Shown piece by piece: positions 10,417-16,537 of a stretch of DNA of 64,000 bases. The DNA lies in NCBI GenBank assembly GCA_947499125.1, contig CANMMP010000004.1:310001-374000 (forward strand), written 5' to 3'. Origin of the DNA: an uncultured Pontibacter sp. GTDB lineage: Bacteria > Bacteroidota > Bacteroidia > Cytophagales > Hymenobacteraceae. Numbering within the stretch: position 1 is the first letter of the stretch; every line of letters begins with the position of its first letter. The translations under genes and the position numbers were made by a program. The notes beneath the pieces were generated by a model that made no database searches, had not been told where the DNA came from, and saw only the letters and a program-made list of their open reading frames with translations.

Positions 10417-11289
10417 TTAAGCCACCTGGGTACGACGGCGCTTAAAGTATAAACCGTGTGTCGGAGAAAACACGAAGGCCAGCGCAAACTGTAGTCCGGT
10501 TATAGTTGCCACTGCACCAGCTATAGAGCCATCGAGCCAATAAGCCAGGTAATAACCTATAACTACTGCCACAATACCGATCCCTACCGAAAACAAGAGC
10601 ATTGTTTTAAAGTTGTCGGTAAGCAGGTAAGCCGTGGCCGGCGGCCCGACCAGGAACGCTACTACCAATATTGCCCCAACCGATTCGAAGGAGGCTACTG
10701 TCGTCAGCGACACGGCTGTCATTAAAAGATAATACCACACAGTAGTTGAAATGCCGATAGCAGCAGCATACGCCGGATCGAAGGCTGTGAGGAAAAGCTC
10801 TTTGTAACCTGTAACTATAAACCCGATCACCAGTAATGTTACAAAACCGAGTGTCCAGAGGGTGCGGGGGCCAAAGCTTAGGCCGCTTTCCGTTATCCAG
10901 AGGTCCAGGGGCACATAGGCTATTTCGCCATACAGGACACAATCCTGGTCCAGGTCTATCTGCCCGGCAAACACCGAAATAAGTATAATGCCTATGGCAA
11001 AGAGCCAGGTAAACGTAATACCAATAGCGGCATCGGCCTGCACGCGCGCATACCGATGGAAAAACTCAATAAGCAGTGTCGTGATAACGCCCAGCAAACC
11101 AGCCCCGATGATCATGGGCAGAGAGTCGCGGGAACCAGTTAATAAAAAAGCGATCACAATGCCCGGCAACACCGCGTGCGAAATAGCATCACCTACCATC
11201 GCCATCCGACGAAGTATAAGATAGCAGCCCAGCAAACTACAGCATGTCGCTACCAAGGAGCCGGTCAGTATTATCCAGAATGCGTTCAC
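10417..11289 (-). CDS. Manganese/zinc ABC transporter permease
   Basis: This 290-residue inner-membrane protein of the ABC-3 family has seven to eight hydrophobic helices. The family hallmarks are YLILRRMAMVGDAISHAVLPG (residues about 25-45) and, later, SFESVGAILVVAFLVGPPATAYL. It is the last gene of the leftward metal-uptake operon. It follows the fused permease at 11451-12734 after a 161-bp gap that contains a palindromic repeat. Two different permeases in one operon suggest a heterodimeric channel, as in Bacillus mntCD. The metal assignment to manganese comes from the neighbouring MntR-type regulators, not from this chain. Confidence 0.88.
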   Translation of the reverse strand: MNAFWIILTGSLVATCCSLLGCYLILRRMAMVGDAISHAVLPGIVIAFLLTGSRDSLPMIIGAGLLGVITTLLIEFFHRYARVQADAAIGITFTWLFAIGIILISVFAGQIDLDQDCVLYGEIAYVPLDLWITESGLSFGPRTLWTLGFVTLLVIGFIVTGYKELFLTAFDPAYAAAIGISTTVWYYLLMTAVSLTTVASFESVGAILVVAFLVGPPATAYLLTDNFKTMLLFSVGIGIVAVVIGYYLAYWLDGSIAGAVATITGLQFALAFVFSPTHGLYFKRRRTQVA

Positions 11290-11349: not shown

Positions 11350-11377
11350 GATTGTTGGTGAAAAACATCAACAATGG
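11350..11377. repeat. Palindromic repeat, copy A (TTGTTGGTG/CATCAACAA)
   Basis: TTGTTGGTG and CATCAACAA flank AAAA-rich sequence, giving an almost perfect palindrome about 60 bp upstream of the second permease start. The same element occurs at 12832-12858 in the next gap of the operon and at 40721-40748 far away. I therefore read it as a dispersed extragenic palindrome rather than a metal-regulator operator. Confidence 0.6.
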
Positions 11378-11450
11378 CTCTGCTTGTTGTCGTAATCGCG
11401 CATGTTACTCTTATTCATTCATCATTATTTATTCACAGAATTACAAGTTC

Positions 11451-12734
11451 CTAGGGTATGCGTGTCTGATGCGGGTCCAGGGAAGGATAGTTTAGTTCTT
11501 CTATTAACTTATGCTCAAGTTCAGGGGTAATTATGTGTTCAATCGTTTCAGCATCTTCGTGTACGTGGTCGGATGCGAGTTGCAGATACTGTGTCAGGTA
11601 TAACTCCCAGAGTCGGTGCAGCCTTACCACGCGTTTACCCCTTACTTCACCCTCAGCTGTTAGGGCCCAACCGTTCTGCTGGTGTTGTACATAGCCTTGT
11701 CGTTTCAGTTTCCGGAGCCCGGTAAGCGCCTGTGGCCTTGGAATGTTGCGTTTGGTAAGTATGGTTTCAAGGGATCGGTTACTGAAATAGTCTTCTTCCT
11801 GTTCGCCGAGTTGGTAGAGGAGCTTCAGCAGGTTTTCTTCAAGTATCTGGGTACGGTTTCGTCGCTGGCGGAGTAATCTCGAGATCCAGCCGCGTTTAGG
11901 AGCCAGGGCAAAAGACAGTAGGGCGATCATAGACACGATAAGTACGATCCAGGGCCCTGTAGGCATGGAAGGGGCAGTGTAGGATACAAACGCACCGCTT
12001 ATACCTGAGAAAGCACCTATAAGAGCAGCCAGCACCAGCATTACCCCAAGCCGTTCGGTCCAGAAACGGGCAGCAGCAGCAGGCGTTATCAACATAGCAG
12101 CCATCAGAACCACACCTACCGCCTGTATACCAACTACCACGGCAAAAACAGTAAGCGTAGTTAAAAGCAATTCCAGCGTCCGGACCGGGAAACCTATACT
12201 TTTGGCGAAGGTCTCATCAAAACAAAGCAGCTTTAACTCTTTATAGAACAATACTGTGGTAGCCAGCAGCAATACTGCAACTGCCCCAAACACGACCAGG
12301 TCTTCGCCCACTAACGAAGCCGCTTTCCCGAACAGAAACTTATCGAGACCACTTTGCGCGGCATTACCCGAGTGCTGTATGGCTGTGAGTAACAAAATTC
12401 CGATACCAAAGAACACTGAAAGGACCAGGCCAATAGCTGTATCTTCTTTAATGCGGGACCGTGAAGTAATATAATCGATGAGGACCAGGGAGAGCCAGCC
12501 GGTAATAAAAGCGCCGAGTAAAAGTATAAATGGATTTTTAGTGCCTGAAAGTATAAATGCAAGGCAGACACCCGGCAGAACAGCATGCGCCACGGCATCG
12601 CCTACCAGCGCGCGTTTCCGGAGCAGCGTAAAGCAACCAACTACAGCCGAACTACTGGCTAGCAGCACAGAGCCCAGCGTAACATACCTTACGTTGGCAT
12701 CCGAAAATGAAAAGAACTCTGTAAACTCGCTCAT
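11451..12734 (-). CDS. ABC-3 permease fused to a C-terminal MntR/DtxR-like domain
   Basis: Residues 1 to about 280 form a normal ABC-3 metal permease (LLRKRALVGDAVAHAVLPGVCLAF, then VGIQAVGVVLMAAMLITPAAAA). From about residue 290 the chain continues as a DtxR-family fold. A winged helix comes first (QILEENLLKLLYQLG, then LTGLRKLKRQGYVQHQQNGWALT), followed by a dimerisation and metal domain (HRLWELYLTQYL, HVHEDAETIEH). The ligand residues H-x3-E and H/E/E-H are in place, with Glu where iron-type DtxR has its key Cys, as in manganese-sensing MntR. The 427-residue length confirms a true fusion. It sits between the ATPase and the second permease. Confidence 0.88.
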   Translation of the reverse strand: MSEFTEFFSFSDANVRYVTLGSVLLASSSAVVGCFTLLRKRALVGDAVAHAVLPGVCLAFILSGTKNPFILLLGAFITGWLSLVLIDYITSRSRIKEDTAIGLVLSVFFGIGILLLTAIQHSGNAAQSGLDKFLFGKAASLVGEDLVVFGAVAVLLLATTVLFYKELKLLCFDETFAKSIGFPVRTLELLLTTLTVFAVVVGIQAVGVVLMAAMLITPAAAARFWTERLGVMLVLAALIGAFSGISGAFVSYTAPSMPTGPWIVLIVSMIALLSFALAPKRGWISRLLRQRRNRTQILEENLLKLLYQLGEQEEDYFSNRSLETILTKRNIPRPQALTGLRKLKRQGYVQHQQNGWALTAEGEVRGKRVVRLHRLWELYLTQYLQLASDHVHEDAETIEHIITPELEHKLIEELNYPSLDPHQTRIP

Positions 12735-12786: not shown

Positions 12787-12858
12787 CTTACTGTGTGTTT
12801 TCACCAGCAGGTGGAAGCAGCCTGGTATTCTGATTGTAAGTGAAAATACCAACAATGG
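12787..12858. repeat. Paired palindromes, copy B
   Basis: CTTACTGTGTGTTTTCACC followed by AGCAGG (12787-12811) and, 20 bp on, GATTGTAAGTGAAAATACC with ACAATGG (12832-12858). Both halves recur, in the same order, on the opposite strand at 40788-40721; the first halves agree at 22 of 25 positions. Copy B lies in the 197-bp gap between the ATPase and the fused permease. Confidence 0.65.
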
Positions 12859-12931
12859 CTTGTTATTTATCTTATAAGATTTAAACTCTAAACAGGTTCA
12901 TGATTAATTGTAACTGTTTGTCTATCAGATG

Positions 12932-13744
12932 TTAAAGGATGACATTATTTTGCCTTCTTGTTTCCCTGGCCGGGAATTCCTGTTTGCGCAATAAGTCGCC
13001 TACTTTGCTGAGTACTGTTAGTTTGCCTCCATAGGTATGCTCCAGTAACTCCTGTGTCATTACCTGCTGAGTTGGGCCTGATGCTACAAGGCGCATGTTC
13101 AGCAATACCACCCAATCGAAGTATTCGCTCGCAGATTGCAGGTCATGGTGCACTACTACTACTGTTTTGCCTTGTTCGCGCATAGTGCGGAGTAATTCTA
13201 TAATAGCTGTTTCGGTAGCAATATCAACGCCGGCAAAAGGCTCATCCATAAAATAGATGTCTGCATTCTGAGCAAGTGCCCTGGCTAAGAACACACGCTG
13301 TTGCTGCCCACCCGACAATTGTGAGATCTGGCGATCGGCAAAACCTTGCATGCCTACTTTTTCCAGTGCCTGCATGGCCGCATCTTTGTCTGCTTTTCGT
13401 GGCCGCTTAAACAAACCCAGGTTACCGTATCTTCCCATCAACACTACATCAAATACCGAAGCCGGGAAATCCCAGTCTACGGACTCGCGCTGCGGCACAT
13501 ACGAAATGCGTTTACGCACCTGCTTTAGCGGCTCATTAAATATGCGAACGTACCCGCTACTGGCTGGCAACAGGTCCATCATGGCTTTTATCAATGTAGA
13601 CTTACCTGCACCATTTGGCCCGATAACACCTACCAACGAACCGGCAGGCAGTGTCAGGTCAACACCCCAAAGCACCGGCTTACGGTCGTAGCTTACTGTC
13701 AGGTCATGCACCTCAACTACCGGATCATCTACTTGAAGTATCAT
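12932..13744 (-). CDS. Manganese ABC transporter ATP-binding protein
   Basis: This 270-residue ATPase is complete. It has Walker [11 protein letters not shown]-loop [13 protein letters not shown], signature LSGGQQQR, Walker [13 protein letters not shown] and the switch histidine VVVHHDL. The DWDFP stretch after the Q-loop is typical of the manganese/zinc/iron (MntB/ZnuC/SitB) group. It sits 12 bp downstream of the binding-protein gene and couples ATP hydrolysis to metal import through the two permeases encoded next. Confidence 0.92.
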
Positions 13745-13756
13745 AGTGTAATATGT

Positions 13757-14689
13757 TTATTTTAAAGCAGATACAATACTGTTTACGTTGTGCCGTACCA
13801 TACCTGTATAAGTGCCTGCTTGAGTGCCTTCTTCGCCGAGCGCATCAGAATATAAGGTGCCGCCAATCCGGACTTTATGGTCTTTCTTCCGGCAACCGAT
13901 CACGACAGCCTCAATAGCCTTCGGAGCCACTGACGACTCCACAAACACCGCTTTTATTTTCCTGTTAACTATAAAATTGACAAGTGACGACACATCCTGC
14001 AAACCAAATTCTGATACAGTGGAAAGCCCCTGTAATCCCCGGACTTCGATGTTATAAGCTTTCCCGAAATAGCCGAAAGCATCGTGCGCAGTAATCAGTG
14101 TGCGTTGCTGAGCCGGCACGGTAGCTATATTTTGTAAGGTATAAGCATGTAACTCTTCAAGCTCCTGTAAGTAGTCATCTGTATTTCGGGCGTATAGTTC
14201 AGCATTCTTCGGGTCTTTGCGTTGTAGTTCGGTGCTCAGGTGTTTTACTACTTCCTGCCACAGCGATACATCAAACCACACATGGGGATCGTAGCTGTCG
14301 GCATAGTCTCCGGATGGTAGCATACGGTCCTTTGGTAAGTTTTCGGCCGCGGCTACTACAGTTTTAAAGCGATCGAGCTTAGCCAGCACTTCACCCATTT
14401 TGCCCTCCAGGTGCAGACCATTGTAAATAATGATGTCGGCATCGGTCAGCTTTTGCAGATCGCCCTGGGTGGCCTTGTACAAGTGCGGGTCTACGCCACT
14501 ACCCATTACGCCTTCAACCCTGGCTGCGTCACCGGTAATGTGTTGCACGGCATCTGCAAGTATACCAGTGGTTGTTACCACATACATGGTTTCACCTTCT
14601 GGTACCGGGCCTTTGTCTATAGTTTGCGCGCACCCGGCAACTATAAAACTTGTCAGCAAGGGCAGGAGAAAAGTATAGAAACGTTTCAT
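13757..14689 (-). CDS. Manganese/zinc ABC transporter substrate-binding lipoprotein
   Basis: This 310-residue cluster A-I binding protein begins with a lipoprotein signal (LLPLLTSFIVAGCAQ). The metal ligands seen are His in YNGLHLEGKM, His in SYDPHVWFDV, an acidic residue near FVESSVAPKA and Asp in LYSDALGEEG. The His-His-Glu-Asp pattern without a long histidine-rich loop is the manganese-type (PsaA/MntA-like) set. It sits between the regulator (10 bp upstream) and the ATPase (12 bp downstream), so all are probably one transcript. Confidence 0.9.
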   Translation of the reverse strand: MKRFYTFLLPLLTSFIVAGCAQTIDKGPVPEGETMYVVTTTGILADAVQHITGDAARVEGVMGSGVDPHLYKATQGDLQKLTDADIIIYNGLHLEGKMGEVLAKLDRFKTVVAAAENLPKDRMLPSGDYADSYDPHVWFDVSLWQEVVKHLSTELQRKDPKNAELYARNTDDYLQELEELHAYTLQNIATVPAQQRTLITAHDAFGYFGKAYNIEVRGLQGLSTVSEFGLQDVSSLVNFIVNRKIKAVFVESSVAPKAIEAVVIGCRKKDHKVRIGGTLYSDALGEEGTQAGTYTGMVRHNVNSIVSALK

Positions 14690-14698
14690 GTACCAGAC

Positions 14699-15379
14699 TC
14701 AGGCTGACAGGAAAATGTTATGCGCTACCTCACTCGAAACAACAAGATTCCTTTTGTTTTCAATGTTGATCTCTAAGGAGTTGTCGTATGGTATCTTATC
14801 CAGTACTTTAATTCTGGCTCCCAGGAAAATTCCCATCTTATCGAGGTACTGCAGGAACAGGGGCTGCGAATCGTTAACGCCAACTACCTGGCCGGTTTCG
14901 CTTATCTCCATTTCGGCCAGCAGGCGTTGAGGTTTTTGTTTCAGCTTACCGTCTTCAGAAGGAATAGGGTCGCCGTGTGGGTCGAACTGGGGGTAACCCA
15001 GGAACTCATCAAGCCGGCGGGTAAGCGTTTCAGAGCTGATGTGCTCCAGCTCTTCGGCTACTTCATGCACCTCGTCCCAGTTAAATTTCAACTTCTCAAC
15101 TAAAAAAACCTCCCATAGCCTATGCTTCCGGATAACCTGCAAAGCCAGTCGCTCGCCAGCTTCGGTAAGACTTACGCCTTTGTAGCGCACATAGTCTACC
15201 ATACCTTTGGCGCTAAGCTTGCGCAGCATATCCGTAACGGAGGCAGCCTTTGTATTGAGGGTTTCAGCTATGGCATTCGTGTTCACGCCATCCTGCCCGC
15301 CCCCCGATAGCTTATAGATCGCCTTGATGTAGTTTTCTTCAGTAAAGCTGTGCACAGAAGTCAGATTAATAATGAACAA
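14699..15379 (-). CDS. mntR: MntR/DtxR family metal-dependent repressor
   Basis: This 226-residue regulator has the full DtxR layout. The winged helix is SFTEENYIKAIYKL with recognition helix KAASVTDMLRKLSAKG. The dimerisation domain holds HRLWEVFLVEKL and VHEVAEELEH, and a C-terminal FeoA/SH3-like domain (MGIFLGARIKVLDK) follows. Glu replaces the iron-type Cys in the second metal motif, which points to manganese sensing. It is the first gene of the metal-uptake operon, so it likely represses its own transcript when manganese is high. A long inverted repeat just upstream (15371-15433) overlaps the start. The gene symbol is given by family and context. Confidence 0.87.
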   Translation of the reverse strand: MFIINLTSVHSFTEENYIKAIYKLSGGGQDGVNTNAIAETLNTKAASVTDMLRKLSAKGMVDYVRYKGVSLTEAGERLALQVIRKHRLWEVFLVEKLKFNWDEVHEVAEELEHISSETLTRRLDEFLGYPQFDPHGDPIPSEDGKLKQKPQRLLAEMEISETGQVVGVNDSQPLFLQYLDKMGIFLGARIKVLDKIPYDNSLEINIENKRNLVVSSEVAHNIFLSA

Positions 15380-15433
15380 TGATCAATAAAAAGTATAGGG
15401 CTTATCCGTATATCTTATTGATCCTTGTTCATT
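15371..15433. promoter_or_regulatory. Long inverted repeat at the mntR start
   Basis: AATGAACAATGATCAATAA (15371-15389) and TTATTGATCCTTGTTCATT (15415-15433) are 19-base arms with one mismatch, separated by 25 bases. The left arm begins inside the first codons of mntR and the right arm ends about 20 bp from the fabH stop. It could be an operator for the repressor, a leader hairpin hiding the start, or an intergenic repeat. A terminator for fabH is less likely because the stem is AT-rich. Confidence 0.55.
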
Positions 15434-15452
15434 AGCCATTAATAATTTAAAA

Positions 15453-16451
15453 CTACCAACGGATAAGCGCTGATGCCCAGGTAAAGCCTGAACCAAAGGC
15501 AGCAAGGCAAACCAGGTCGCCTTCTTTTATGCGGCCTTCCTGCACAGCCTCGCTCAGGGCGATAGGCACAGATGCCGCCGTGGTATTGCCATACTTGTGT
15601 ATGTTGCTCATTACTTTTTCGGCTGGCAAGCCCATCTTTTGCTGTATATAAGACGTGATGCGCAGGTTAGCCTGGTGAGGTATAAGCATATCAATGTCAG
15701 TAGCTTTATAGCCGTTCTTGTTAAGTGCTTCTTCAATCACTTCCGGGAAGCGGGTAACTGCGTGCTTAAACACCATATTACCATTCATGTAAGGGTAGAT
15801 AGAGCCATCTTCAAGCATCTCGTGTGTCAGGCGGTCCTTCTTATTCGTGGCAGGGGCCAGTACGGCCAGTTCTTCGGCAAACTCTCCGTCGGCGTGAAGG
15901 TGCGTGCTTAAAACGCCTTTATCATTGCTTTCGGAAGGAGTGAGGACAAGCGCTCCGGCACCATCACCGAATATAACTGAAACACCACGACCCCTTGTAG
16001 AGAAGTCAAGTCCGCTGGAATGGATCTCGGAGCCTACAACCAGCACATTGTTATACATACCGGTCTTAATGAACTGGTCGGCTACAGAGAGGGCATAAAT
16101 AAACCCTGAACACTGGTTACGGATATCAATAGCAGGAATCTCTTTAATGCCCAGTTCGCGCTCTAACAACACACCAGAACCAGGGAAAACGTAATCGGGG
16201 CTAAGTGTGGCAAATACGATCAGGTCTATTTGTTCCGGCTGAAGGTTCGCCATTTCGAGTGCCTTGCGAGATGCCTTGGCAGCCATGTTGGCGGTGGTAT
16301 CCACGCCTTCGGTAAAATAGCGACGCTCCTTTATACCGGTTCTTTCCTGTATCCATTCATCTGATGTATCCATCAACTGTTCCAGATCCTTATTTGTAAC
16401 TACCTGCTCAGGTACATAATGGCCAACGCCAGCTATTTTTGAATTGCGCAT
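15453..16451 (-). CDS. fabH: 3-oxoacyl-[acyl-carrier-protein] synthase III
   Basis: This 332-residue ketosynthase is full length. It starts MRNSKIAGVGHYVPEQVVTN and carries the catalytic Cys in DIRNQCSGFIYAL, His in IPHQANLRI and Asn in KYGNTTAAS. It condenses an acyl-CoA starter with malonyl-ACP, the first step of fatty acid synthesis. In Bacteroidota the starters are often branched. It is not next to plsX or rpmF here, which is where many bacteria keep one fabH copy, so this may be one of several paralogues. The 75 bp to mntR hold the long inverted repeat. Confidence 0.93.
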   Translation of the reverse strand: MRNSKIAGVGHYVPEQVVTNKDLEQLMDTSDEWIQERTGIKERRYFTEGVDTTANMAAKASRKALEMANLQPEQIDLIVFATLSPDYVFPGSGVLLERELGIKEIPAIDIRNQCSGFIYALSVADQFIKTGMYNNVLVVGSEIHSSGLDFSTRGRGVSVIFGDGAGALVLTPSESNDKGVLSTHLHADGEFAEELAVLAPATNKKDRLTHEMLEDGSIYPYMNGNMVFKHAVTRFPEVIEEALNKNGYKATDIDMLIPHQANLRITSYIQQKMGLPAEKVMSNIHKYGNTTAASVPIALSEAVQEGRIKEGDLVCLAAFGSGFTWASALIRW

Positions 16452-16537
16452 AGTTTTGTCTTTTAATATCCAAATATACTATTAATTTCTGAATTTAGGT
16501 TAGTCTAAAAATAAATTTATTTAAAACCCCACTTGAC

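Follow-up and report, generated by a model that had tools for sequence, protein, structure and literature searches.

Why would a metal importer carry a repressor-like, putative metal sensor on one of its membrane subunits when the same operon also encodes a free repressor? This question is raised by a gene of an uncultured Pontibacter sp. that lies in the window, the whole 64,000-nucleotide stretch of DNA that was analysed. The gene occupies 11451-12734 on the minus strand and encodes 427 residues plus a stop codon, fusing an ABC-3 permease to a C-terminal tail of the DtxR type.

The fusion gene and its operon

The reading frame contains no internal stop over its 427 residues and is divided into three parts. 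Residues 15-277 (11904-12692, minus strand) form the ABC-3 permease domain (Pfam PF00950, E 1.5e-69), residues ~299-358 (11661-11840, minus strand) form the winged helix, the DNA-reading half of the DtxR fold, and residues 359-427 (11454-11660, minus strand) form a metal-binding and dimerisation domain (Fe_dep_repr_C, PF02742, E 8e-22; 77.5 bits, above the cut-off of 27). The tail has H373 and E377 in an H-x3-E pattern and E396, E399 and H400 in an E-x2-E-H pattern, with H392 as an additional ligand. The winged helix (Fe_dep_repress, PF01325, residues 300-353) scores 14.7 bits against a Pfam cut-off of 26 and is therefore judged to be divergent, but its fold is retained in the AlphaFold2 model. 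The earlier note on this DNA had described a single uninterrupted 427-residue ORF that combines a permease, a winged helix and a metal domain with both ligand patterns, and this description is borne out.

The best PDB sequence matches are the PsaBC permease for the first part of the protein and SloR and DR2539 for the tail. The single-chain AlphaFold2 model, built with 47 sequences, has a pLDDT of 87.7 and a pTM of 0.76. Foldseek matched its membrane part to PsaBC (7kyp, TM-score 0.91 on the target, 35% identity) and its tail to the manganese repressor DR2539 (8pw0, TM-score 0.84, rmsd 1.5 Å). In the model, one continuous helix, residues 283-313 (11796-11888, minus strand, pLDDT about 87-92), leads from the last membrane helix, where the membrane domain ends, into the winged helix.

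Conservation across the genus and the order rules out chance or misassembly as the origin of the fusion. A same-genus search found it at full length and free of stops in 28 of 36 genomes, with 78-89% identity, and the remaining eight gave matches to the tail only, which belong to free DtxR proteins. The fusion was also found across the order, beyond the genus. A recent capture of the local mntR as the source of the tail is unsupported, as the free proteins form one side of a branch with a support of 95 and the tethered domains lie apart, in a tree whose deep branches are unresolved.

The fusion gene belongs to a minus-strand cluster with the order FabH-like gene, mntR-like gene, binding protein, ATPase, fusion and second permease. 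The second ABC-3 permease (10417-11289) has 290 residues and no tail, the ABC ATPase (12932-13744) has 270 residues, and the substrate-binding protein (13757-14689, 310 residues) is of the ZnuA/MntC family (PF01297, E 1.5e-77). The free MntR-like repressor that the earlier note had placed in this operon is present at 14699-15379 with DtxR and FeoA domains. Its start is likely a GTG near 15355, because its relatives begin there. The FabH-like gene (15453-16451), named from its sequence alone, lies between mntR and a putative MntR box, and the position of the box makes it possibly the first gene of the mntR transcription unit; another FabH-like gene in the genome is 43% identical to it.

Several repeats in this region were also considered. 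An 18-nt repeat (89%) is located upstream of each permease gene (11362-11379 and 12843-12860), and inspection by eye did not find it in the equivalent gaps at eight Pontibacter loci. Candidate operator repeats lying between the two permease genes (AAAAnnnnCAACAATGGCT) were rejected, because reading the intergenic flanks at eight Pontibacter loci by eye did not reveal them. A large inverted repeat at 15370-15434 was also set aside; it resembles a terminator and seems peculiar to the species, other Pontibacter loci having different repeats.

Constraint on the tail and the candidate MntR operator

Among 47 aligned fusions from several phyla, H373, E377, E399, H400 and H422 are invariant, position 392 is His in 44 and Asp in the rest, and position 396 is Glu in 40 and Asp in the rest. 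Position 301, which corresponds to the helix 1 ligand of DtxR/MntR, is Asn, Asp or His in all 47. The same ligands are invariant in 31 Chlamydiota except for one E396D. Loss of the ligands in homologues, which the earlier note had named as a refutation of its reading, was found in Bacillota only, and elsewhere (the 47 fusions and the 31 Chlamydiota) the ligands are conserved.

Compared with its counterpart in the co-resident free MntR, the DNA-reading half is under much weaker constraint. Across 21 Bacteroidota genomes that encode both proteins, mean pairwise identity of the HTH and wing is 34% for the tethered and 57% for the free domain, compared with 67% and 72% for the metal half. The recognition helix of the tail is not conserved (40% identity versus 64% in free MntR of the same genomes), and this includes positions 335, 337 and 338, which are conserved in the free protein. 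At nine Pontibacter loci, the pN/pS of the HTH and wing is 0.47 tethered and 0.14 free, and that of the metal half is 0.17 tethered and 0.13 free. Over 27 same-genus fusions, pN/pS is 0.10 for the permease, 0.38 for the HTH and wing, and 0.13 for the metal half. By these values, the metal half is almost as tightly constrained as the permease, and the DNA-reading half is not. The pN/pS of the HTH is still well below 1, which shows that some constraint persists there, and its fold is probably preserved. We note that HTH drift alone is not sufficient to exclude DNA binding, because the tail HTH of Chlamydiota is as variable as that of the window (25% identity) and both DNA binding and repression have been reported for Chlamydia YtgR (PMC5599777, PMC6504234).

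A putative MntR operator, TTTAGGTTAGTCTAAA, is found at 16494-16509, within the 86-bp gap that precedes the FabH-like gene. It is the single match to TTTAGNNNNNNCTAAA in the window, where 0.12 would be expected. Of the 20 Bacteroidota loci with both proteins in the fetched stretch (L090-L105, L107, L110, L112 and L113), 17 have the palindrome TTTAGRNNNNYCTAAA upstream of the transcription unit that contains the free mntR. The copies in L101 and L097, counted among the 17, each have a single inner mismatch to this stricter consensus. No box was found in L096, L105 and L107. L153 also has the box. The whole genome contains 13 box sites, compared with three for a reversed control pattern, and we infer that the box at 16494-16509 is an MntR operator. 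A second good match, TTTAGATTTGTCTAAA, is located at G000:C2:544312-544327 (L207), just upstream of a 266-residue ORF.

In three genomes in which the fusion is the only DtxR-type protein (G044, G053 and G055), the transporter loci that were fetched show no box near the fusion gene, consistent with free MntR being the reader of the box. The exception is L166, a metagenome-assembled genome with no other PF02742 match and thus apparently fusion-only, where the box lies just upstream of the fusion gene; this assembly may be incomplete.

Tail states in other bacteria

The counts in this section describe samples picked by score and by even drawing (a phylum sample and named genomes) and not a census, and the 80 loci of the genome scan are likewise a best-scoring sample, because the scan used a consensus as its first row. 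The window represents type A, in which one permease carries the winged helix and the metal domain and the second is plain; this type is found in Bacteroidota, Verrucomicrobiota, Chlamydiota and others. In type C, found in Saprospiraceae and relatives, the tail has an additional FeoA/SH3 domain (about 498 residues), and in the Saprospiraceae-type loci the box lies just upstream of the fusion gene. Eight type C genomes have exactly one ABC-3 permease each, so their transporter should be a homodimer that carries two tethered sensors. One Latescibacterota and one Planctomycetota genome have an operon in which the metal domain is present on each of the two permeases. In type B, both permeases have the winged helix only and no metal domain, in Flavobacteriaceae, Rhodothermota, Omnitrophota and Chloroflexota; the permease pairs of L061-L074, L145 and L152 end in this way.

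The tail is present with its ligands lost in Bacillota, including MntC of Bacillus spizizenii, and is absent from members of Paenibacillus and Rubrobacteraceae. In a 1.1-Mb genome (G057, locus L044), the permease has 289 residues and no tail, which is likely a loss in a small genome. On the permease tree, five changes are needed among the tail states. We found no description of the constraint split, of the type A, B and C states or of the relic tail of Bacillus MntC in the open-licence literature.

L078-L085 (for example L079:2143-3169) contain proteins of ~345 residues in which a single N-terminal membrane helix is combined with a DtxR-like domain and two FeoA domains, the domain content being that of the L079 protein, on which the scan was run. 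Their genes are flanked by that of a free DtxR on one side and by a split FeoB on the other (FeoB_N E 4e-62 in L079). This appears to be a second type of importer with a membrane-tied DtxR-like module.

Role of the tail and comparison with known systems

Our preferred reading, to which we give an even chance of being correct, is that the tail works as a tethered metal sensor and restrains import, while control of transcription is left to free MntR. The strong preservation of the metal-binding half and the drift of the DNA-reading half suggest that the tail may sense metal to control the channel rather than genes. The fusion would be one permease subunit of an Mn2+ (or Mn2+/Fe2+) ABC importer, with a DtxR-like cytoplasmic sensor fixed to its last membrane helix. 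When cytoplasmic manganese or iron is high, the sensor would bind metal and change shape or dimerise, and the rigid helix would transmit this change to the transporter, which would be slowed by feedback inhibition. Free MntR of the same cluster would handle the transcriptional part. We infer the identity of the metal, its binding and the inhibition step.

The preferred reading is consistent with the ligands conserved in 47 fusions of several phyla, with the relaxed HTH and constrained metal half, seen in both identity and pN/pS, and with the predicted continuous helix and the fold match to DR2539. The genome already encodes a free MntR whose transcription unit has a conserved palindrome, the three fusion-only genomes G044, G053 and G055 have no box near the fusion gene, and single-permease type C genomes and operons with the domain on both permeases add to the case. 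On the other side, a relaxed HTH is compatible with DNA binding, as the Chlamydiota tails and YtgR illustrate. The window has a tail on only one of two permeases, which means that two transporters, or some partner, would be required to form a sensor dimer. Ligand loss in Bacillota and the winged-helix-only tails of type B imply that the metal part is not essential to the transporter family. The earlier note had proposed that the tail senses cytoplasmic metal and gates the transporter, or else holds operator DNA near the membrane. This interpretation is partly supported: the first proposal is the one that the evolutionary evidence, the predicted helix and the separate MntR with its box favour most, and the second is disfavoured for this genome by the drift of the HTH.

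The alternative that survives best, though we consider it unlikely, is that the tail acts as a metal-dependent repressor on the transporter operon, either after release by proteolysis or from the membrane. Its precedent is Chlamydia YtgCR (CT069), which has the same architecture and is reported to be cleaved, giving an iron-dependent repressor (PMC5599777, PMC7755916). Most sampled Chlamydiota genomes have no PF02742 domain other than the fused copy, and the box upstream of the fusion gene in Saprospiraceae-type loci, among them the apparently fusion-only L166 with the reservation made above, also favours this alternative. However, the HTH is much less constrained than that of free MntR in the same genomes, the recognition-helix positions are not conserved, the genome of the window has a free MntR, and three fusion-only genomes have no box near the fusion.

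We regard it as rather improbable that the tail uses its conserved dimerisation surface to bind free MntR and keep it at the membrane, which would tune the repressor to transporter abundance or metal flux. The conserved dimerisation and metal half of both proteins and their location in one cluster speak for such pairing, as does the single tail, which leaves a dimer surface unpaired for each presumed heterodimer, but fusions also occur in genomes without any free DtxR. Still less probable is a non-regulatory tail that stores metal, or hands it on, where the permease opens to the cytoplasm. Conserved ligands after the last membrane helix and a rigid predicted link would suit this function, but a complete dimer-type DtxR fold with both sites exceeds the needs of a buffer. 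It is very improbable that the tail is vestigial or structural and persists for the sake of folding or stability, since the metal half in the window lineage is nearly as constrained as the permease, even though Bacillota tails without ligands, tails with a winged helix only and the tailless members of Paenibacillus and Rubrobacteraceae would fit this reading.

Compared with DR2539, SloR, MntR and DtxR, the tail of the window shares the fold and the ligand pattern, but it is tethered, its HTH has diverged and it lacks the FeoA/SH3 domain. PsaBC of Streptococcus pneumoniae (7kyp) shares the membrane fold of the permease and has no tail. MntC of the Bacillus MntABCD system belongs to the same permease family, and the predicted secondary structure of its tail is alike through the winged helix, but its metal ligands are lost and Pfam detects no DtxR domain. 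These statements on MntC rest on B. spizizenii L125 (L125:5974-7281), whose tail looks DtxR-type, a separate Bacillus MntC sequence having served as a probe in the query alignment only; the L125 model has low confidence (pLDDT 64.6), with only its tail usable, and its DtxR matches are weak (E 0.025). The importers MetNI and ModBC have C-terminal regulatory domains, cytoplasmic ligand domains that slow import by feedback inhibition. Their likeness to the window lies in the proposed working principle only, as the domain there is on the ATPase and has an unrelated fold.

The closest known system is Chlamydia YtgCR, and the fusion is thus of an already known kind; a 2017 review reports permease-repressor fusions in 11 phyla. 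The earlier note knew of no functional study, which is incorrect for the field, as YtgCR has been studied (PMC5599777, PMC7755916). Like YtgCR, the window has one ORF in which an ABC-3 permease is followed by a DtxR-like winged helix and a metal domain, keeps the DtxR metal ligands, and has a binding protein, an ATPase and a second permease in the operon. Unlike YtgCR, its genome adds a free MntR and a conserved operator-like box. L199, a relative that is 36% identical to the Chlamydiales query and tentatively placed with Chlamydiaceae from its WWW motif, has the same ligands as the window. Its tail after the last membrane helix is ~19 kDa, whereas the literature, which describes DNA binding and repression by YtgR as iron-dependent, gives about 28-30 kDa for its C-terminal fragment, and a 28-kDa fragment of L199 would start near residue 206, inside the permease; this comparison relies on gel sizes, which are unreliable for membrane proteins.

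We further propose, at slightly short of even chances, that the fused DtxR-like domains on ABC-3 permeases in many phyla are transport-regulating metal sensors and not repressors, a repressor module having become an allosteric domain. If so, Chlamydia YtgR, now regarded solely as a repressor, would need re-examination for a role in transport. A tail that gates transport would provide post-translational feedback on a manganese ABC importer and would mean that a gene repressor fold has been reused as a transporter domain across several phyla. It would also raise the question of whether YtgCR, the only studied member, acts solely through release of a repressor, and the ligand residues and the free MntR box offer direct tests.
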